Below are positions 3,513 through 23,699 of a stretch of 64,000 nt of DNA, in pieces (within the stretch, counting starts at the first letter, position 1; the number at the start of each line of letters is the position of its first letter). The stretch comes from Candidatus Vesicomyosocius sp. SY067_SCS001. GTDB taxonomy: Bacteria > Pseudomonadota > Gammaproteobacteria > PS1 > Pseudothioglobaceae. The position numbers and the translations under genes are program-made. Location of the stretch: positions 620,001 through 684,000 of the forward strand of contig NZ_CP054877.1 of NCBI RefSeq assembly GCF_014706615.1, read 5' to 3'. The notes under the pieces were generated by a model. That model had not been told where the DNA came from. It made no database searches and saw only the letters and a list, made by a program, of their open reading frames with translations.

Positions 3513-5231
3513 TTATTTTAAGGCCTTTATTTGTACAATTATTAGTTGTAATGAAGTACTGCCTCTCCAACTATTAATGGATAATTTATAAACCGCCAAA
3601 ACTTTCACAAACTCAAGTAACGGTTGAAAAAATACAATACCATCAAATACTTTAACATTACCATTTAATTTTAAGAGACATTTTATATGTTTTTTACCAA
3701 CCACTTTTTGCTCAATAATCTCAAATTCACCATAAAAAATTGGCTCGTCAAATCCTTGACCCCAAGGTCCAACATCAACTAATAATTGTGCATTGTTTAA
3801 TGATAATTCAAATACCTCTAATTCACCATCAGTTAACAAATTAACTTTAGATATCTGGTTATCTAGATGAATTTGAATAGCATCTGAAAAAGCTTGTTTA
3901 AAATTGGAAAAATTTTCAGATTTAATACTTAATCCTGCTGCCATAGCATGACCCCCGAATTTTACAATTAAATCAGGGTTTTGTCTATCTACTATATCTA
4001 ATAAATCTTTGATGTGTACACTGGGGATAGAACGAATAGAACCTTTTAAATAATTACCTGACTGAGCAAATATCGCAACTGGACAATGATAGTTTTCTTT
4101 AAGTTTACCAGCCACAATACCCACAATACCCTCATGCCAAGATGGTTCAAATAAACTAATGGCAAATCTATCATGACCCATATCTTTTTGTGTAATAGAT
4201 AATTCTTGCATATCAACAATAGATTGTGCTTGGTCTTGCATACGGGCTTGTTCTTGTTTGCGTTGTTGATTAAACCTTTCTAACTCTTGAGCATAACGCC
4301 TAGCATCATTTATATCATCAGTTAATAAGCAACGTATACCACATGAAATATCACTTAAACGCCCTGCTGCATTTAAACGTGGAGCTATAGAGAAAGCTAA
4401 ATCACTTGCACATAAAGTTGAACTTGGTCGATTTGAAATTTCTAATAACGCCAAAATACCTAGAGAACATTTTTTTTGTTGAATTCGTTTAATACCTTGA
4501 TCAACTAAAATTCTATTATTTTGATCAAGTTTTACTACATCAGCCACTGTACCAAGTGCAACCAAATCTAATACATTTCGTAAGTCTGGTGGAACAATTC
4601 TTTGATGGATAAAATAATCACTCTCACTTAAATGAGTTTTTAAAGCAGAAAATAGATAAAAACAAACTCCAACACCTGCTAAATTTTTGCTTAAAAATTC
4701 ACAATCTTTAAGATTGGGATTAATAATTGCATCTGCATTAGGAAGATTCTCATTGGGTAAGTGATGATCAGTTACAATGACTAAAATACCTGATAATTTT
4801 GCTAATTTTATCCCATCAAAACTTGAAATGCCATTATCAACTGTAATAATCACATCAGGCTGTTTTTCTTGAATAGCTAAGTTAACAATTTCCTCACTCA
4901 AACCATAACCATGTTCAAAACGATTAGGAACTAAAAAATCCACATATTTTGCTCCCATCATACGTAATGACTTAACTGCAACAACAGATGCAGTTGCACC
5001 ATCACAATCAAAATCACCAACAATCAAAATACGTTTTTGATTAAGTAAAGCTTGCTCAAGTAAGACAAGCGCGATATCTAGTTGAAGGAAATTAGGCTTT
5101 AATAGGTGACTAAGATTCAAAGACAAGTGCGACTCATTAATTCCACGAGCAGCATAAATTTTCTTTAAAAAAATAGGAATATCATCTGAATATGAATCAA
5201 ATAAATTTTGATCTATTGTTCTAATAAGCAT
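3513..5231 (-). CDS. recJ: Single-stranded-DNA-specific 5'-3' exonuclease RecJ
   Basis: DHH-family exonuclease acting in recombination and mismatch repair. Motifs visible: GDFDCDGATA (motif I), VDNG, TDHHLP (the DHH motif), FGGHAMAAGLS in the DHHA1 domain, and a C-terminal OB-type segment. The open frame extends to 5306, but the first 25 residues (a hydrophobic run beginning MMYHFF) do not look like RecJ and overlap the upstream gene. I therefore choose the ATG at 5231, which gives 572 aa and overlaps that gene's stop by 11 bases. Its presence shows some recombination capacity survives; recA lies outside this window if it exists. Confidence 0.93.
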   Translation of the reverse strand: MLIRTIDQNLFDSYSDDIPIFLKKIYAARGINESHLSLNLSHLLKPNFLQLDIALVLLEQALLNQKRILIVGDFDCDGATASVVAVKSLRMMGAKYVDFLVPNRFEHGYGLSEEIVNLAIQEKQPDVIITVDNGISSFDGIKLAKLSGILVIVTDHHLPNENLPNADAIINPNLKDCEFLSKNLAGVGVCFYLFSALKTHLSESDYFIHQRIVPPDLRNVLDLVALGTVADVVKLDQNNRILVDQGIKRIQQKKCSLGILALLEISNRPSSTLCASDLAFSIAPRLNAAGRLSDISCGIRCLLTDDINDARRYAQELERFNQQRKQEQARMQDQAQSIVDMQELSITQKDMGHDRFAISLFEPSWHEGIVGIVAGKLKENYHCPVAIFAQSGNYLKGSIRSIPSVHIKDLLDIVDRQNPDLIVKFGGHAMAAGLSIKSENFSNFKQAFSDAIQIHLDNQISKVNLLTDGELEVFELSLNNAQLLVDVGPWGQGFDEPIFYGEFEIIEQKVVGKKHIKCLLKLNGNVKVFDGIVFFQPLLEFVKVLAVYKLSINSWRGSTSLQLIIVQIKALK

Positions 5232-13996: not shown

Positions 13997-14656
13997 TTAT
14001 TTTAGCGACTTATGTGCAACATTATTACGTAAATAAGTTGGCAGTGCTAACTTATTGCTAAAATTGATATGTTGGTTAGCACAGGTTAAATAAAGTACTA
14101 TGAGATTCTCAGCTTTTGGATAAAAATTAGCAAAACAGGTATTAATACCTGTTTGTTGAATAAGCTCATTGTCATATACACCCCATCCATCTCCCACGCC
14201 AATAAAATATTTTCCAAGAATATCCACTTCATCAGGCTTTTGTAAACTTTCCTTACACAAGATTTGATTTTGATAAATACCCCAATATACCTCATTCATA
14301 CGTGCATCAAGTGCAATAGCAATTTTGCTAATATTGTATTTTTTAAACGCTCCAAACCCAAGCAGCTCAAGTGTTGAAAAACCTACTGTAGGAATATTAT
14401 ATGCCAACGATATACCTTGAACTACACTAACACACATTCTAACACCTGTAAAAGATCCAGGACCTTTAGTGTAGATAATACCATCTAAGGCAGAAGGTAG
14501 CAATTGACCAGCTTTAAAAATCTCATCGCAAAGTGATAATATTAAACCTGAACTTTTATTCACATCTTGAACAAAACGAGAAAAGATTTCACCTTGAGTA
14601 TAAAGACTTACCGAACACGTATTAGTACAAGTATCAATTGCTAATAAATTTATCAT
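13997..14656 (-). CDS. tsaB: tRNA threonylcarbamoyladenosine biosynthesis protein TsaB
   Basis: ASKHA-fold partner of TsaD and TsaE in making t6A37 of ANN-decoding tRNAs. The N-terminal LLAIDTCTNTCSVSLY and the KGPGSFTGVRMCVSVVQGIS motif at about residue 64 identify it. The length of 219 aa is normal. The gene has no close upstream partner, and the phage remnant lies about 160 bases upstream. Confidence 0.93.
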   Translation of the reverse strand: MINLLAIDTCTNTCSVSLYTQGEIFSRFVQDVNKSSGLILSLCDEIFKAGQLLPSALDGIIYTKGPGSFTGVRMCVSVVQGISLAYNIPTVGFSTLELLGFGAFKKYNISKIAIALDARMNEVYWGIYQNQILCKESLQKPDEVDILGKYFIGVGDGWGVYDNELIQQTGINTCFANFYPKAENLIVLYLTCANQHINFSNKLALPTYLRNNVAHKSLK

Positions 14657-14813: not shown

Positions 14814-15029
14814 TCAAATAGGTAACTGGTCTTTTACTTCTTCAGGCGCATCAGAAGTCTCATTTTTATCCAAATTTTCTTCATAATTTAGTATGTTGTC
14901 TTCATTATTTTCTGTATCAAGCTCCCTATGCAAGAAATAATCTTTATAATCATTCATAACCTTACCTCTTTCAGAAGACGGCAGATTTTCCCATTAAGAT
15001 TTAAAATCTGCAACAATATTAAGAGATTT
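14814..15029 (-). pseudogene. Remnant of gokushovirus internal scaffolding protein VP3 (C-terminal part)
   Basis: The frame continuing from the VP4 remnant reads KSLNIVADFKS, a TAA stop (14994-14996), then WENLPSSERGKVMNDYKDYF and an acidic tail ending at TGA 14814. This resembles the VP3 pattern 'SLN.v.......f..LPs..R..F.ndp..fl.f' of gokushoviruses, with the stop falling where an aromatic residue would be expected. It is joined in frame to the VP4 fragment near 15030, so an internal deletion probably removed the rest of VP4 and the start of VP3. The identity is from memory of the family pattern and is less sure than VP4. Confidence 0.6.
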
Positions 15030-15297
15030 TTGAAAATTGACTTTATCCAAAGATCTATTTTCAGGAAGATTTTCAGAATTATAAGTAAGAGTTAAAAAAG
15101 AATTATCTGTATGCAGAATTGACTCATGAAAACATCGAACGGGGCCCACTGCCGGGAGCGGCTCTAGACGGCACCCGAAACATTAGACCACATGGAAGGG
15201 TTAAAGGAACAGTTTCACCACTTTCACCACGTTCATCAAAGATTACAGAATTTGTAATAAGATCCCTGTAAGCTTGTAAAGGATGATAACAGGACAT
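15030..15297 (-). pseudogene. Remnant of gokushovirus replication initiation protein VP4
   Basis: Starts at ATG 15297 as MSCYHPLQAYRDLITNSVIF and runs to TLPCG, the usual start of Microviridae VP4. After one extra T (about 15185), an extra C (about 15160) and an extra CC (about 15143) are removed, it continues CGQCFGCRLE-RSRQWA-VRCFHES, the conserved VP4 motif, then NSFLTLTYNSENLPENRSLD. Only about 90 of roughly 300 residues remain, and the rolling-circle catalytic tyrosine region is missing. This stretch is richer in G+C than its surroundings. It is a dead gene. Confidence 0.85.
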
Positions 15298-15427
15298 TAA
15301 AGTCTTATACCACCCCTAGGGGGAAAATAGAAGCCACACTAAAGTTGTTTTTACGGTGTGTTTTCTTAGCATTTTTAGAAGAAATACGTTTAGAATATCT
15401 TTTCCGTAATTTAAAAGGTTTTCTCAT
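15297..15427 (-). pseudogene. Remnant of gokushovirus J-like DNA-binding protein, frameshifted at its end
   Basis: ATG at 15427, with an AAGGA upstream, opens a very basic peptide: MRKPFKLRKRYSKRISSKNA then KKTHRKN, the pattern of the small packaging protein of gokushoviruses. In the starting frame it ends at TAA 15305. In another frame the same DNA reads RGGIRL followed by TAA at 15297-15299, which is the typical C-terminus of this protein, and that stop overlaps the VP4 start as TAATG. One indel near the C-run at 15320-15325 explains this. Confidence 0.8.
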
Positions 15428-15812
15428 ATTATTTTTCCTTTTTTAGTCTTAATTTTATTAATTGGTATCACCTAGCCCAGTTACATCAAGTAACTTTTTG
15501 GTAAAGTCATTAATTACTCGTATTGTTTAACCCCAAATACAAAATATTTATATACACAAAAATTACAGAACTATTAAGCATGCATTCTTTAATTAAACGA
15601 ATATACCAATAATAACCCCTCATCAATGCTTCTTTAACTTTTTATCTCAAAACTTCTCTTTCTATTTGATAAGGTATTTTTAATTAAATACATCTTATGA
15701 TATTAGTCATAAGAAATGACTTGTTATAGAATATGTAATATAATAAATTATCTAAATTTTAACAAAATCTATCCCCAAAATATTTTTTTATACAATATAT
15801 AGAATTAAGTGA

Positions 15813-15907: not shown

Positions 15908-16267
15908 ATGAGACATTATGAGATTACACTTATTGTCCATCCTGATCAATCAGCTCAGGTAGGTACAATGATGGACAAATACAAAGAAATCATTACTGCT
16001 GATGGTGGTAAGATTCATAAAGAAGAGGATTGGGGGCGTAAGCATTTAGCCTATCCAATCAAGAAAATTTATAAAGCACATTACTTGATGATGAATATTG
16101 AGTGTGACCAAGAGATGCTTGATAAACTCAATTATAATTTTCGCTTTAATGATGCTATTCTTAGAAATTTAATTATTTCTAAGAATAAGGCAATTACCAC
16201 ACCATCAATCATGATGGTTAATAAAGATAAAGATAAAGAAAAAGAAAAAGAAAAAGGGAAGTCATAA
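15908..16267 (+). CDS. rpsF: 30S ribosomal protein S6
   Basis: S6 binds S18 on the platform of the small subunit. It starts [15 protein letters not shown], with AAGGAG upstream, and is 119 aa including a charged lysine/glutamate C-terminal tail ([14 protein letters not shown]) typical of gammaproteobacterial S6, where RimK may add glutamates. Its TAA overlaps the rpsR ATG by one base (TAATG). Confidence 0.97.
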
Positions 16268-22858: not shown

Positions 22859-23218
22859 TTATATATTTAACCGTGAATGAGTATGTCCAATATCTTTGAG
22901 TTTTTGTAAATATTCATGCCAAAGCTTATCGTGATTAGAAGCAAGTTTATACAAGTGTGACCAAGAATAAATACCGCTATCGTGTTTATCACTAAAAAAT
23001 AAAATTACAGCGTAATTTCCTGTTGGCTGAATACGTAAAATAGTAACATTTTCTTTATTGAGTTGCAATATTTCTTGTCCTGAAGCATGACCAACTACTT
23101 CAGCTGAAGGTGAATAAATTCTTAAATATTCAGCACTAAGCAAATAATTGATCTCATCAAAGGTAATAGTTAATAAAGTTTTTTCTTTGTTTAGGCTAAT
23201 ATTAGTTGGTGTTTGCAT
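22859..23218 (-). CDS. DUF971 protein (gamma-butyrobetaine hydroxylase N-terminal-like)
   Basis: A free-standing 119-aa DUF971 domain. The features are TFDEINYLLSAEYLRIYSPSAE, a block GNYAVILFFSDKHDSGIYSW with the DxHxxGIY motif, and LYKLASNHDKLWHEYLQKL. The domain occurs free or fused to Mrp/ApbC Fe-S carriers, and a role near iron-sulfur chemistry is only suggested by those fusions. It is monocistronic here. Confidence 0.8.
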   Translation of the reverse strand: MQTPTNISLNKEKTLLTITFDEINYLLSAEYLRIYSPSAEVVGHASGQEILQLNKENVTILRIQPTGNYAVILFFSDKHDSGIYSWSHLYKLASNHDKLWHEYLQKLKDIGHTHSRLNI

Positions 23219-23699
23219 TAGTTATCTTTGATATATACCATCCAATAATATTCTATCATAAATAAATTAATCAAACCTTGATAATTATAAGTGAGCAATA
23301 TCATAAGATATGTTGATTTATTTTAATAAATACATAAGATTTAATAACGACTTCATGGTAATTAATCATCTTTCTAGTTTTAGTCAATATATGATACTCA
23401 ATTTCTAATATTGAAATAAAATACGCATTAATCAAATTAAATTGAGATATATAACAAGAAAACTAATGAAGCTAATACTATTATCTTGAAAGATTATTTC
23501 AGTAAGAAAATGATAATAACAATAGCAAAAATAGTAATACTAAAGGATAGATGACAAACAGGTATGAATATTTCTAAATATATTGGACAAACTCCAATGA
23601 TTTCATCATATAAATAAATACTGTATTTTGTTTCTTATTCTTCTAACTCTTAAGAGATAAATTGGTAAAATCTTTAGAACTTCTAACATTTATAAAAAA
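23219..23699. other. Spacer between divergent DUF971 gene and hisS
   Basis: 480 bases of AT-rich DNA that must hold both promoters. I see no further gene or repeat. Confidence 0.5.

Follow-up and report, generated by a model that had tools for sequence, protein, structure and literature searches.

The chromosome of Candidatus Vesicomyosocius sp. SY067_SCS001, an intracellular clam symbiont with a reduced genome, contains a degraded gokushovirus-type microvirus between a tsaB-like gene and rpsF, an identification supported by the phage genes it retains and by the empty site in related genomes. The inserted DNA begins and ends at one position, TTG/A (a slash marks the cut position), of a hairpin that we take as the putative replication origin of these phages. 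Phage DNA opened at the origin was probably joined to the chromosome, perhaps by the replication initiator VP4 itself, and then decayed. Phages reached the intracellular clam symbionts more than once, and the fossils they left suggest that the usual recombination enzymes are not required for tiny single-stranded DNA phages to enter chromosomes. The window, that is, the whole stretch analysed here, comprises 64,000 bases (positions 620,001 to 684,000 of contig NZ_CP054877.1) of a single-contig genome of 1,032,764 bases. A preliminary description of this DNA had proposed that an ancestor of the symbiont was exposed to a gokushovirus and kept a piece of it, and the phage identity together with the empty site in six relatives bears this out. 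New relative to that description are three fossils elsewhere, the origin element found at the insert ends and the absence of the enzymes used by known microvirus prophages.

The inserted segment and its genes

The minus strand from the tsaB-like gene to rpsF contains a series of broken reading frames. The whole phage insert occupies positions 14815 to 15486 on the minus strand (672 bases) and is bounded on both sides by the TTG/A position of the phage origin. The fossil was correctly located by the preliminary description, but its interval (14814-15427) falls 59 bases short on the right. Read in the phage sense, the insert consists of half of the hairpin with a conserved box, a J-like gene, N-terminal pieces of VP4 in two frames and a probable VP3 C-terminus; the remaining phage genes were not found in it. 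Its G+C content is 33.9% compared with 30.6% for the window, and a short G+C-rich run lies within the VP4 remnant at 15140-15177.

The gene for the J-like small basic protein (15305 to 15427, minus strand) is an open reading frame that is shifted near its end. It matches phrog_10695 in PHROGs (E 0.017) and, by tblastn, 5 of 313 free phage contigs at E <= 1e-3 (best E 3e-5). The first N-terminal piece of the replication initiator VP4 (15124 to 15297, minus strand) begins MSCYHPLQAY at 15297; its match to phrog_942 is marginal (E 0.041), while tblastn gives a best E of 1.5e-6 and matches to 84 of the 313 contigs at the same cut-off. The second piece, in another frame (14994 to 15149, minus strand; VRCFHES to LTLTYN), matches phrog_942, a replication initiation protein family, at E 8.9e-11 and by tblastn 294 of the 313 contigs (best E 6.8e-14), a set of which 103 had been collected through VP4 similarity. 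The motifs named in the preliminary description are all present: CFGCRLE and VRCFHES share one frame and SRSRQWA lies in another, KKTHRKN is in the J frame and RGGIRL in an adjacent one, and MSCYHP is preceded by an overlapping TAATG. On sequence likeness the identification of the VP4 and J pieces is firm.

Across 83 genomes of the family, the phrog_942 profile matched three. The window genome scored E 9.8e-11 with a further in-line match at E 0.00138, and the match in one relative (G094, E 0.04) was dropped as marginal. When 801 bases were compared with 50,697 phage records by blastn, 94 records matched at E 1 or better. Of the 20 matches listed, 19 have Microviridae, microvirus, gokushovirus or pequenovirus in their names; the exception, called 'Dipodfec virus', carries a replication initiator beneath the aligned part. 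An Eel River basin pequenovirus that came from sediment at a methane seep is among the better matches.

The frame from 14814 to 14993 (minus strand) is probably the C-terminus of VP3, the internal scaffolding protein; it runs to the stop codon, and this codon overlaps the position of the cut. The sequence evidence for this identity is weak and its main support is its place. The only PHROGs match is to a family of unknown function (E 0.35). A VP3 profile built from free phages scores 59 residues at 4.0 bits, compared with a best of 1.5 bits for shuffled sequences (49 of 50 shuffles reported) and -0.2 bits for the VP4 profile on the same residues, and it aligns LPSSERGKVMND to the corresponding LPxxxR stretch of VP3. 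For a 47-residue frame, however, the best tblastn match (E 0.013) is the VP4 C-terminus of the free phage contig L370 and not its VP3, which counts against VP3 identity for that stretch. The frame closes with DQLPI and a stop within the hairpin of the origin, the same place at which contig L112 has the end of its annotated VP3. Of the three decayed minus-strand genes proposed earlier, J-like and VP4 are therefore upheld by both PHROGs and tblastn, and VP3 stands as probable.

In free phages VP3, the origin, J and VP4 follow one another on one strand. The window shares with free phages the order J then VP4, and the probable VP3 end lies at the opposite end of the insert because the circle was opened at the origin. 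The major capsid protein VP1 is the basis on which Gokushovirinae are classified. The window remnant is without VP1, and the insert is of gokushovirus type by VP4 and gene order only. The VP1 profile PF02305 matched none of the 83 family genomes and its control gave no signal either, making that search uninformative.

The host site in related genomes

The insert is flanked on one side by a host gene on the minus strand (13997 to 14656), which we take to be probably tsaB, and on the other by a plus-strand gene (15908 to 16267) that is presumably rpsF, standing ahead of what we take to be rpsR, rplI and dnaB. Both are open reading frames that align in relatives. The alignment covered six of the eleven other genomes of the genus (G001, G002, G004, G005, G008 and G010); the site between the two genes is empty in all six, and in G001 nothing separates the flanks. 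The check in sister genomes that was proposed earlier thus places the insertion in the lineage of the window genome. In the phage sense the junctions read ...GTTACTTG/ATGTAACTGGGCTAGG... and ...GACCAGTTACCTATTTG/ATTTTACTTTAAT..., and the empty site in G005 reads ...TTACTTG/GTTTTACTTTAAT... The insert starts with ATGTAACTGG and finishes with TTG, and the surrounding host DNA is intact.

Over rpsF to dnaB the window is 95.3% identical to G005 and 94.4% identical to G008, compared with 84-85% for three others, and identity over dapF is 92.5-94.5% among the window genome (G000), G001 and G005. By DNA identity G000, G001, G005 and G008 form a close group, which probably corresponds to clade I of PMC3202245.

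The putative origin hairpin at the junctions

The 5' end of the insert (15464 to 15486, minus strand) carries the 3' arm of the origin hairpin and the box (ATGTAACTGGGCTAGGTGATACC), the same element as in free gokushoviruses, and its 3' end (14815 to 14832, minus strand) carries the 5' arm with the first part of the loop (AGACCAGTTACCTATTTG). The arms form a split inverted repeat (14822-14832 and 15474-15484); they are 91% complementary and lie 641 bases apart, and the origin motif ends at contig base 635486, which is window position 15486. In free gokushoviruses a conserved hairpin with the loop core CTTGAT, followed after the stem by a TGACA box, lies between VP3 and J/VP4. Among 103 loci collected by VP4 protein similarity alone, 66 have the loop core, the box and a stem of at least 7 pairs in the 600 bases preceding the VP4 match, and 37 fail this test; among 103 equally long control regions taken from across the circle one passed, the stem cut-off being 7 for the loci and 8 for the controls. 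The loop core is CTTGAT in 47 loci, CTAGAT in 10, CTTGTT in 8 and CTCGAT in 1.

Fifty-two of the 66 elements were aligned after near-duplicates and elements running off contig ends had been dropped, and in eight of ten stem pairs both partners vary. Covariation is 0.326 compared with 0.082 in shuffled alignments (none of 500 reached 0.326) and at most 0.068 in slid structures. When arms were swapped between phages, a mean of 23.8 and a maximum of 31 of the 52 could still pair. These swapped-partner and covariation figures are the informative ones, as the elements were chosen for a stem of at least 7 pairs; the paired fraction of cells (91.3%) is partly, and the pairing of 52 of 52 elements wholly, a result of construction. 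The annotated viral-strand origin of phiX174 starts at 4306, between CAACTTG and ATATT, and phiX174 CAACTTG/AT has 7 bases in common with the gokushovirus loop across the same bond (five before, two after). In Bdellovibrio phage phiMH2K no perfect hairpin of at least 9 pairs was found, and no Rfam family reached its gathering score in L112, L116 or L046 (the locus of the G001 fossil described below). Position, structure and likeness to phiX174 lead us to take the hairpin as a putative rolling-circle origin cut by VP4. In the open-access literature we found no description of a gokushovirus replication origin or stem-loop, of an assay of its cutting or of Rep-mediated integration by Microviridae, and word counts gave no mention of a palindrome, stem, stem-loop or hairpin in PMC9239249, PMC3394797, PMC6116155, PMC9512667 or PMC7062461. 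We propose the element as a defined replication origin for gokushoviruses.

The origin also occurs in other settings. A spacer at the end of a long CRISPR array of Natronospirillum operosum (NZ_SRMF01000001.1; L462 3535-3568) is TACTTGATGTAACTGGTCTAGGTGACACCAACAC, a gokushovirus origin, and this free-living bacterium appears to target the element through it. Three IMG/VR contigs are longer than one phage: L163 (7870) and L166 (8099) hold parts of two differing gokushovirus-type genomes in tandem, and L321 (11306) has three matches to the origin motif. These are either assembly chimeras or mixed concatemers.

Further fossils in related genomes

Motif and DNA-similarity searches, which others could escape, revealed four fossils in three genomes: the window genome, G001 and G010. 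The origin motif was found at five places in four of the 83 family genomes, and four of these places are the fossils. The fifth (G007:C42, 3 mismatches) was dropped since it lies within a 358-residue frame resembling a host gene. No fossil was found by motif or similarity searches in G003, whose matches in one comparison are host flanks. A scan for the origin motif in a collection of genomes from 84,980 species gave no further integrated copy; its five matches were four on MAG contigs of phage size (4.3-4.5 kb) and one in a CRISPR spacer.

The G001 fossil (1,265 bases; L046 4652-5916) comes from a related phage and lies beside dapF, a different locus from that of the window fossil. After the same half of the origin it has a J-like gene, the final residues of VP1 (recognized by eye), and then VP2 (tblastn E 7e-17, with matches also to phrog pilot-protein families) and VP3 (tblastn E 1e-12). 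Like the window fossil it starts and ends at TTG/A, both phage circles having been opened at the same place, and its site is empty in all three clade relatives compared (G000, G005 and G008). At these two of the four fossils no clear loss or duplication of the target is seen. The stretch downstream of dapF (L046 5929-6041) has a second copy in clade genomes (window 23114-23228; G001:C1:639755-639869; G008:C1:328560-328654), and in G001 and G008 this copy has weak fragments resembling dapF close by.

G010 carries two fossils. The larger one, at 868-871 kb, is less decayed and retains VP3 (phrog_1642, E 3e-22), J and the greater part of VP4, interrupted by two stops (phrog_942, E 4.6e-119). The motifs HYH and AYVTPYV are recognized by eye in its VP4 copy and are presumably the two-tyrosine HUH motifs; the corresponding part has been lost from the window copy. 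Its origin is uncut and internal, both fossil ends lying elsewhere. It abuts a broken DJ-1/PfpI-like gene, named by eye (L047 5129-5569), and between the homologous flanks other sequence is present in G011 (about 2.1 kb) and G009 (about 1.6 kb). The smaller one, at 728.9 kb, is a scrap of 60-odd bases, including a scrap of VP3 recognized by eye, with 8 unexplained bases before the cut position and its other end lost. In G007 a dif-like site (G007:C117:30465-30489) lies about 100 bases from the homologue of the right flank of this small fossil, and in G010 the dif-like site and that flank are far apart. Only two of the four fossils were thus opened exactly at the cut; the small G010 scrap is imprecise in this respect, and the large G010 fossil departs from the pattern. 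Other integration routes were open in G010, whose genome has a dif-like site as well as RecA and tyrosine recombinases.

Recombination enzymes and target likeness

Neither a tyrosine recombinase (PF00589) nor RecA was found in any of the four clade genomes (G000, G001, G005 and G008), and each was found in 14 of 14 controls; RecA is present in 7 of the 12 genomes of the genus. No dif-like site within 3 mismatches was found in these four genomes. With the dif pattern reversed as a control, one match was found in each of G003, G004 and G007, and single dif-like matches at 3 mismatches therefore mean little. As each of the window and G001 insertions occurs in just one of the genomes compared, by parsimony both postdate the loss of RecA and tyrosine recombinases.

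The empty sites in G005 share with the phage, across the cut, 6 bases at the window site and 7 bases at the G001 site. Shared runs of these lengths are found at 0.24% and 0.07%, respectively, of all positions in the window, figures that by our estimate would rise several-fold if shifts of a few bases were allowed. At the window site G001 shares 4 bases, and G002, G004, G008 and G010 share none or nearly none at the cut; at the site of the G001 fossil G000 shares 4. How far the empty site resembles the cut site differs from relative to relative, and the true target may have been more or less like it. The transposon IS91 prefers CTTG or GTTC as targets.

Route of insertion

A gokushovirus would have infected an ancestor of the symbiont, and during rolling-circle replication VP4 would have cut the viral strand at TTG/A in the loop of the origin hairpin, giving a linear phage genome with VP4 on its 5' end. 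The chromosome may then have received the linear genome at a target that bore some likeness to the cut sequence and shows no clear loss or duplication, in a manner comparable to HUH-type rolling-circle transposition. Most of the phage interior would have been deleted before or after insertion, the remainder decaying since. A linear genome ending at the VP4 cut accounts for the ends, for the missing duplication and for the missing enzymes, and we consider it probable that origin-cut phage DNA entered the chromosome in this way, with VP4 perhaps performing the joining. The missing middle may reflect insertion of a shortened circle or later trimming of a full one.

The break at the origin might instead have done no more than supply linear ends, which the host then joined through microhomology or illegitimate end repair while VP4 transferred no strand. 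Such repair requires neither RecA nor a tyrosine recombinase, and some bases are common to phage and target at both sites, up to the 6 and 7 seen in G005 though fewer in other relatives. Two insertions with both ends exact and no clear target loss would nevertheless be tidier than is usual for it. We regard end repair as unlikely but worth serious consideration, and the sequence itself is compatible with joining by either VP4 or the host.

Another possibility is the route known for microvirus prophages, in which XerC/XerD of the host integrate the phage at dif-like sites; the gokushovirus prophages of Escherichia and the microviruses of Bacteroidetes are examples (PMC7062461 and PMC3091885), and the origin palindrome, at about 29 bases, is of dif-like size. 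The palindrome at the insert ends was at first read as dif-like, a reading that was dropped when the hairpin was found in free phages and Xer and dif were found to be absent. The clade lacks both the recombinase and the site, the stem varies in sequence among phages and differs from dif, the junction letters are those of the origin, and the loci of the window and G001 fossils are unrelated, all of which makes this route very improbable. Homologous recombination by RecA is more improbable still: the enzyme occurs elsewhere in the genus but is missing throughout the clade of four, and at most 6-7 bases are common to phage and target. Tiny phages are common contaminants, and the preliminary description had named an assembly artefact or library contaminant as what would overturn it. 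The copy, however, is frameshifted, shortened and fused to symbiont flanks at a site that is empty in six relatives, and similar fossils occur in two other genomes, so that an artefact is scarcely credible.

The preferred reading, in which DNA cut at the origin was joined to the chromosome, offers a testable integration route that needs neither RecA nor Xer, and the ends of the fossils offer a means to recognize further ones. A more general proposal, that microvirus replication initiators act as integrases joining the phage genome to chromosomal sites resembling the origin loop, is tentative; we regard it as plausible though not quite probable. If true, single-stranded DNA phages would have a way into chromosomes that is independent of host enzymes, visible here since the symbionts have lost RecA and Xer.

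Comparison with known systems

We found no description of microvirus fossils in vesicomyid symbionts in the open-access literature. The fossils are added to a group whose one checked genome account, that of Ruthia magnifica (PMC3035367), reports no mobile DNA or phage-related sequences except a LexA-type gene. The row for mobile element functions in a table of PMC2642828 reads 32 followed by five zeros, the zeros presumably standing for the clam symbionts. In free-living relatives of the symbionts the same virus group is known from SUP05 single cells, where the Gokushovirinae are free, complete phage genomes and not chromosomal remnants (PMC4164917).

A close likeness is with the enterogokushovirus prophages of Escherichia (EC6098), in which a gokushovirus is likewise present in a gammaproteobacterial chromosome without an integrase of its own (PMC7062461). 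Those prophages can excise and depend on a dif site of 28 bases and on XerC/XerD of the host; in contrast, the window fossil is broken, its junction is the origin, and no such enzymes or site were found in its clade. The same source also mentions remnants of a gokushovirus-like initiator and minor capsid protein in Chlamydia chromosomes, which are those of obligate intracellular bacteria of a different phylum. The joining step finds a parallel in the two-tyrosine HUH enzymes of the IS91 type, which are initiator-type enzymes that join one strand to a target without direct repeats (PMC5714925). IS91 is a transposon, whereas here the DNA that was joined is a phage genome, whose own enzyme may have acted likewise.
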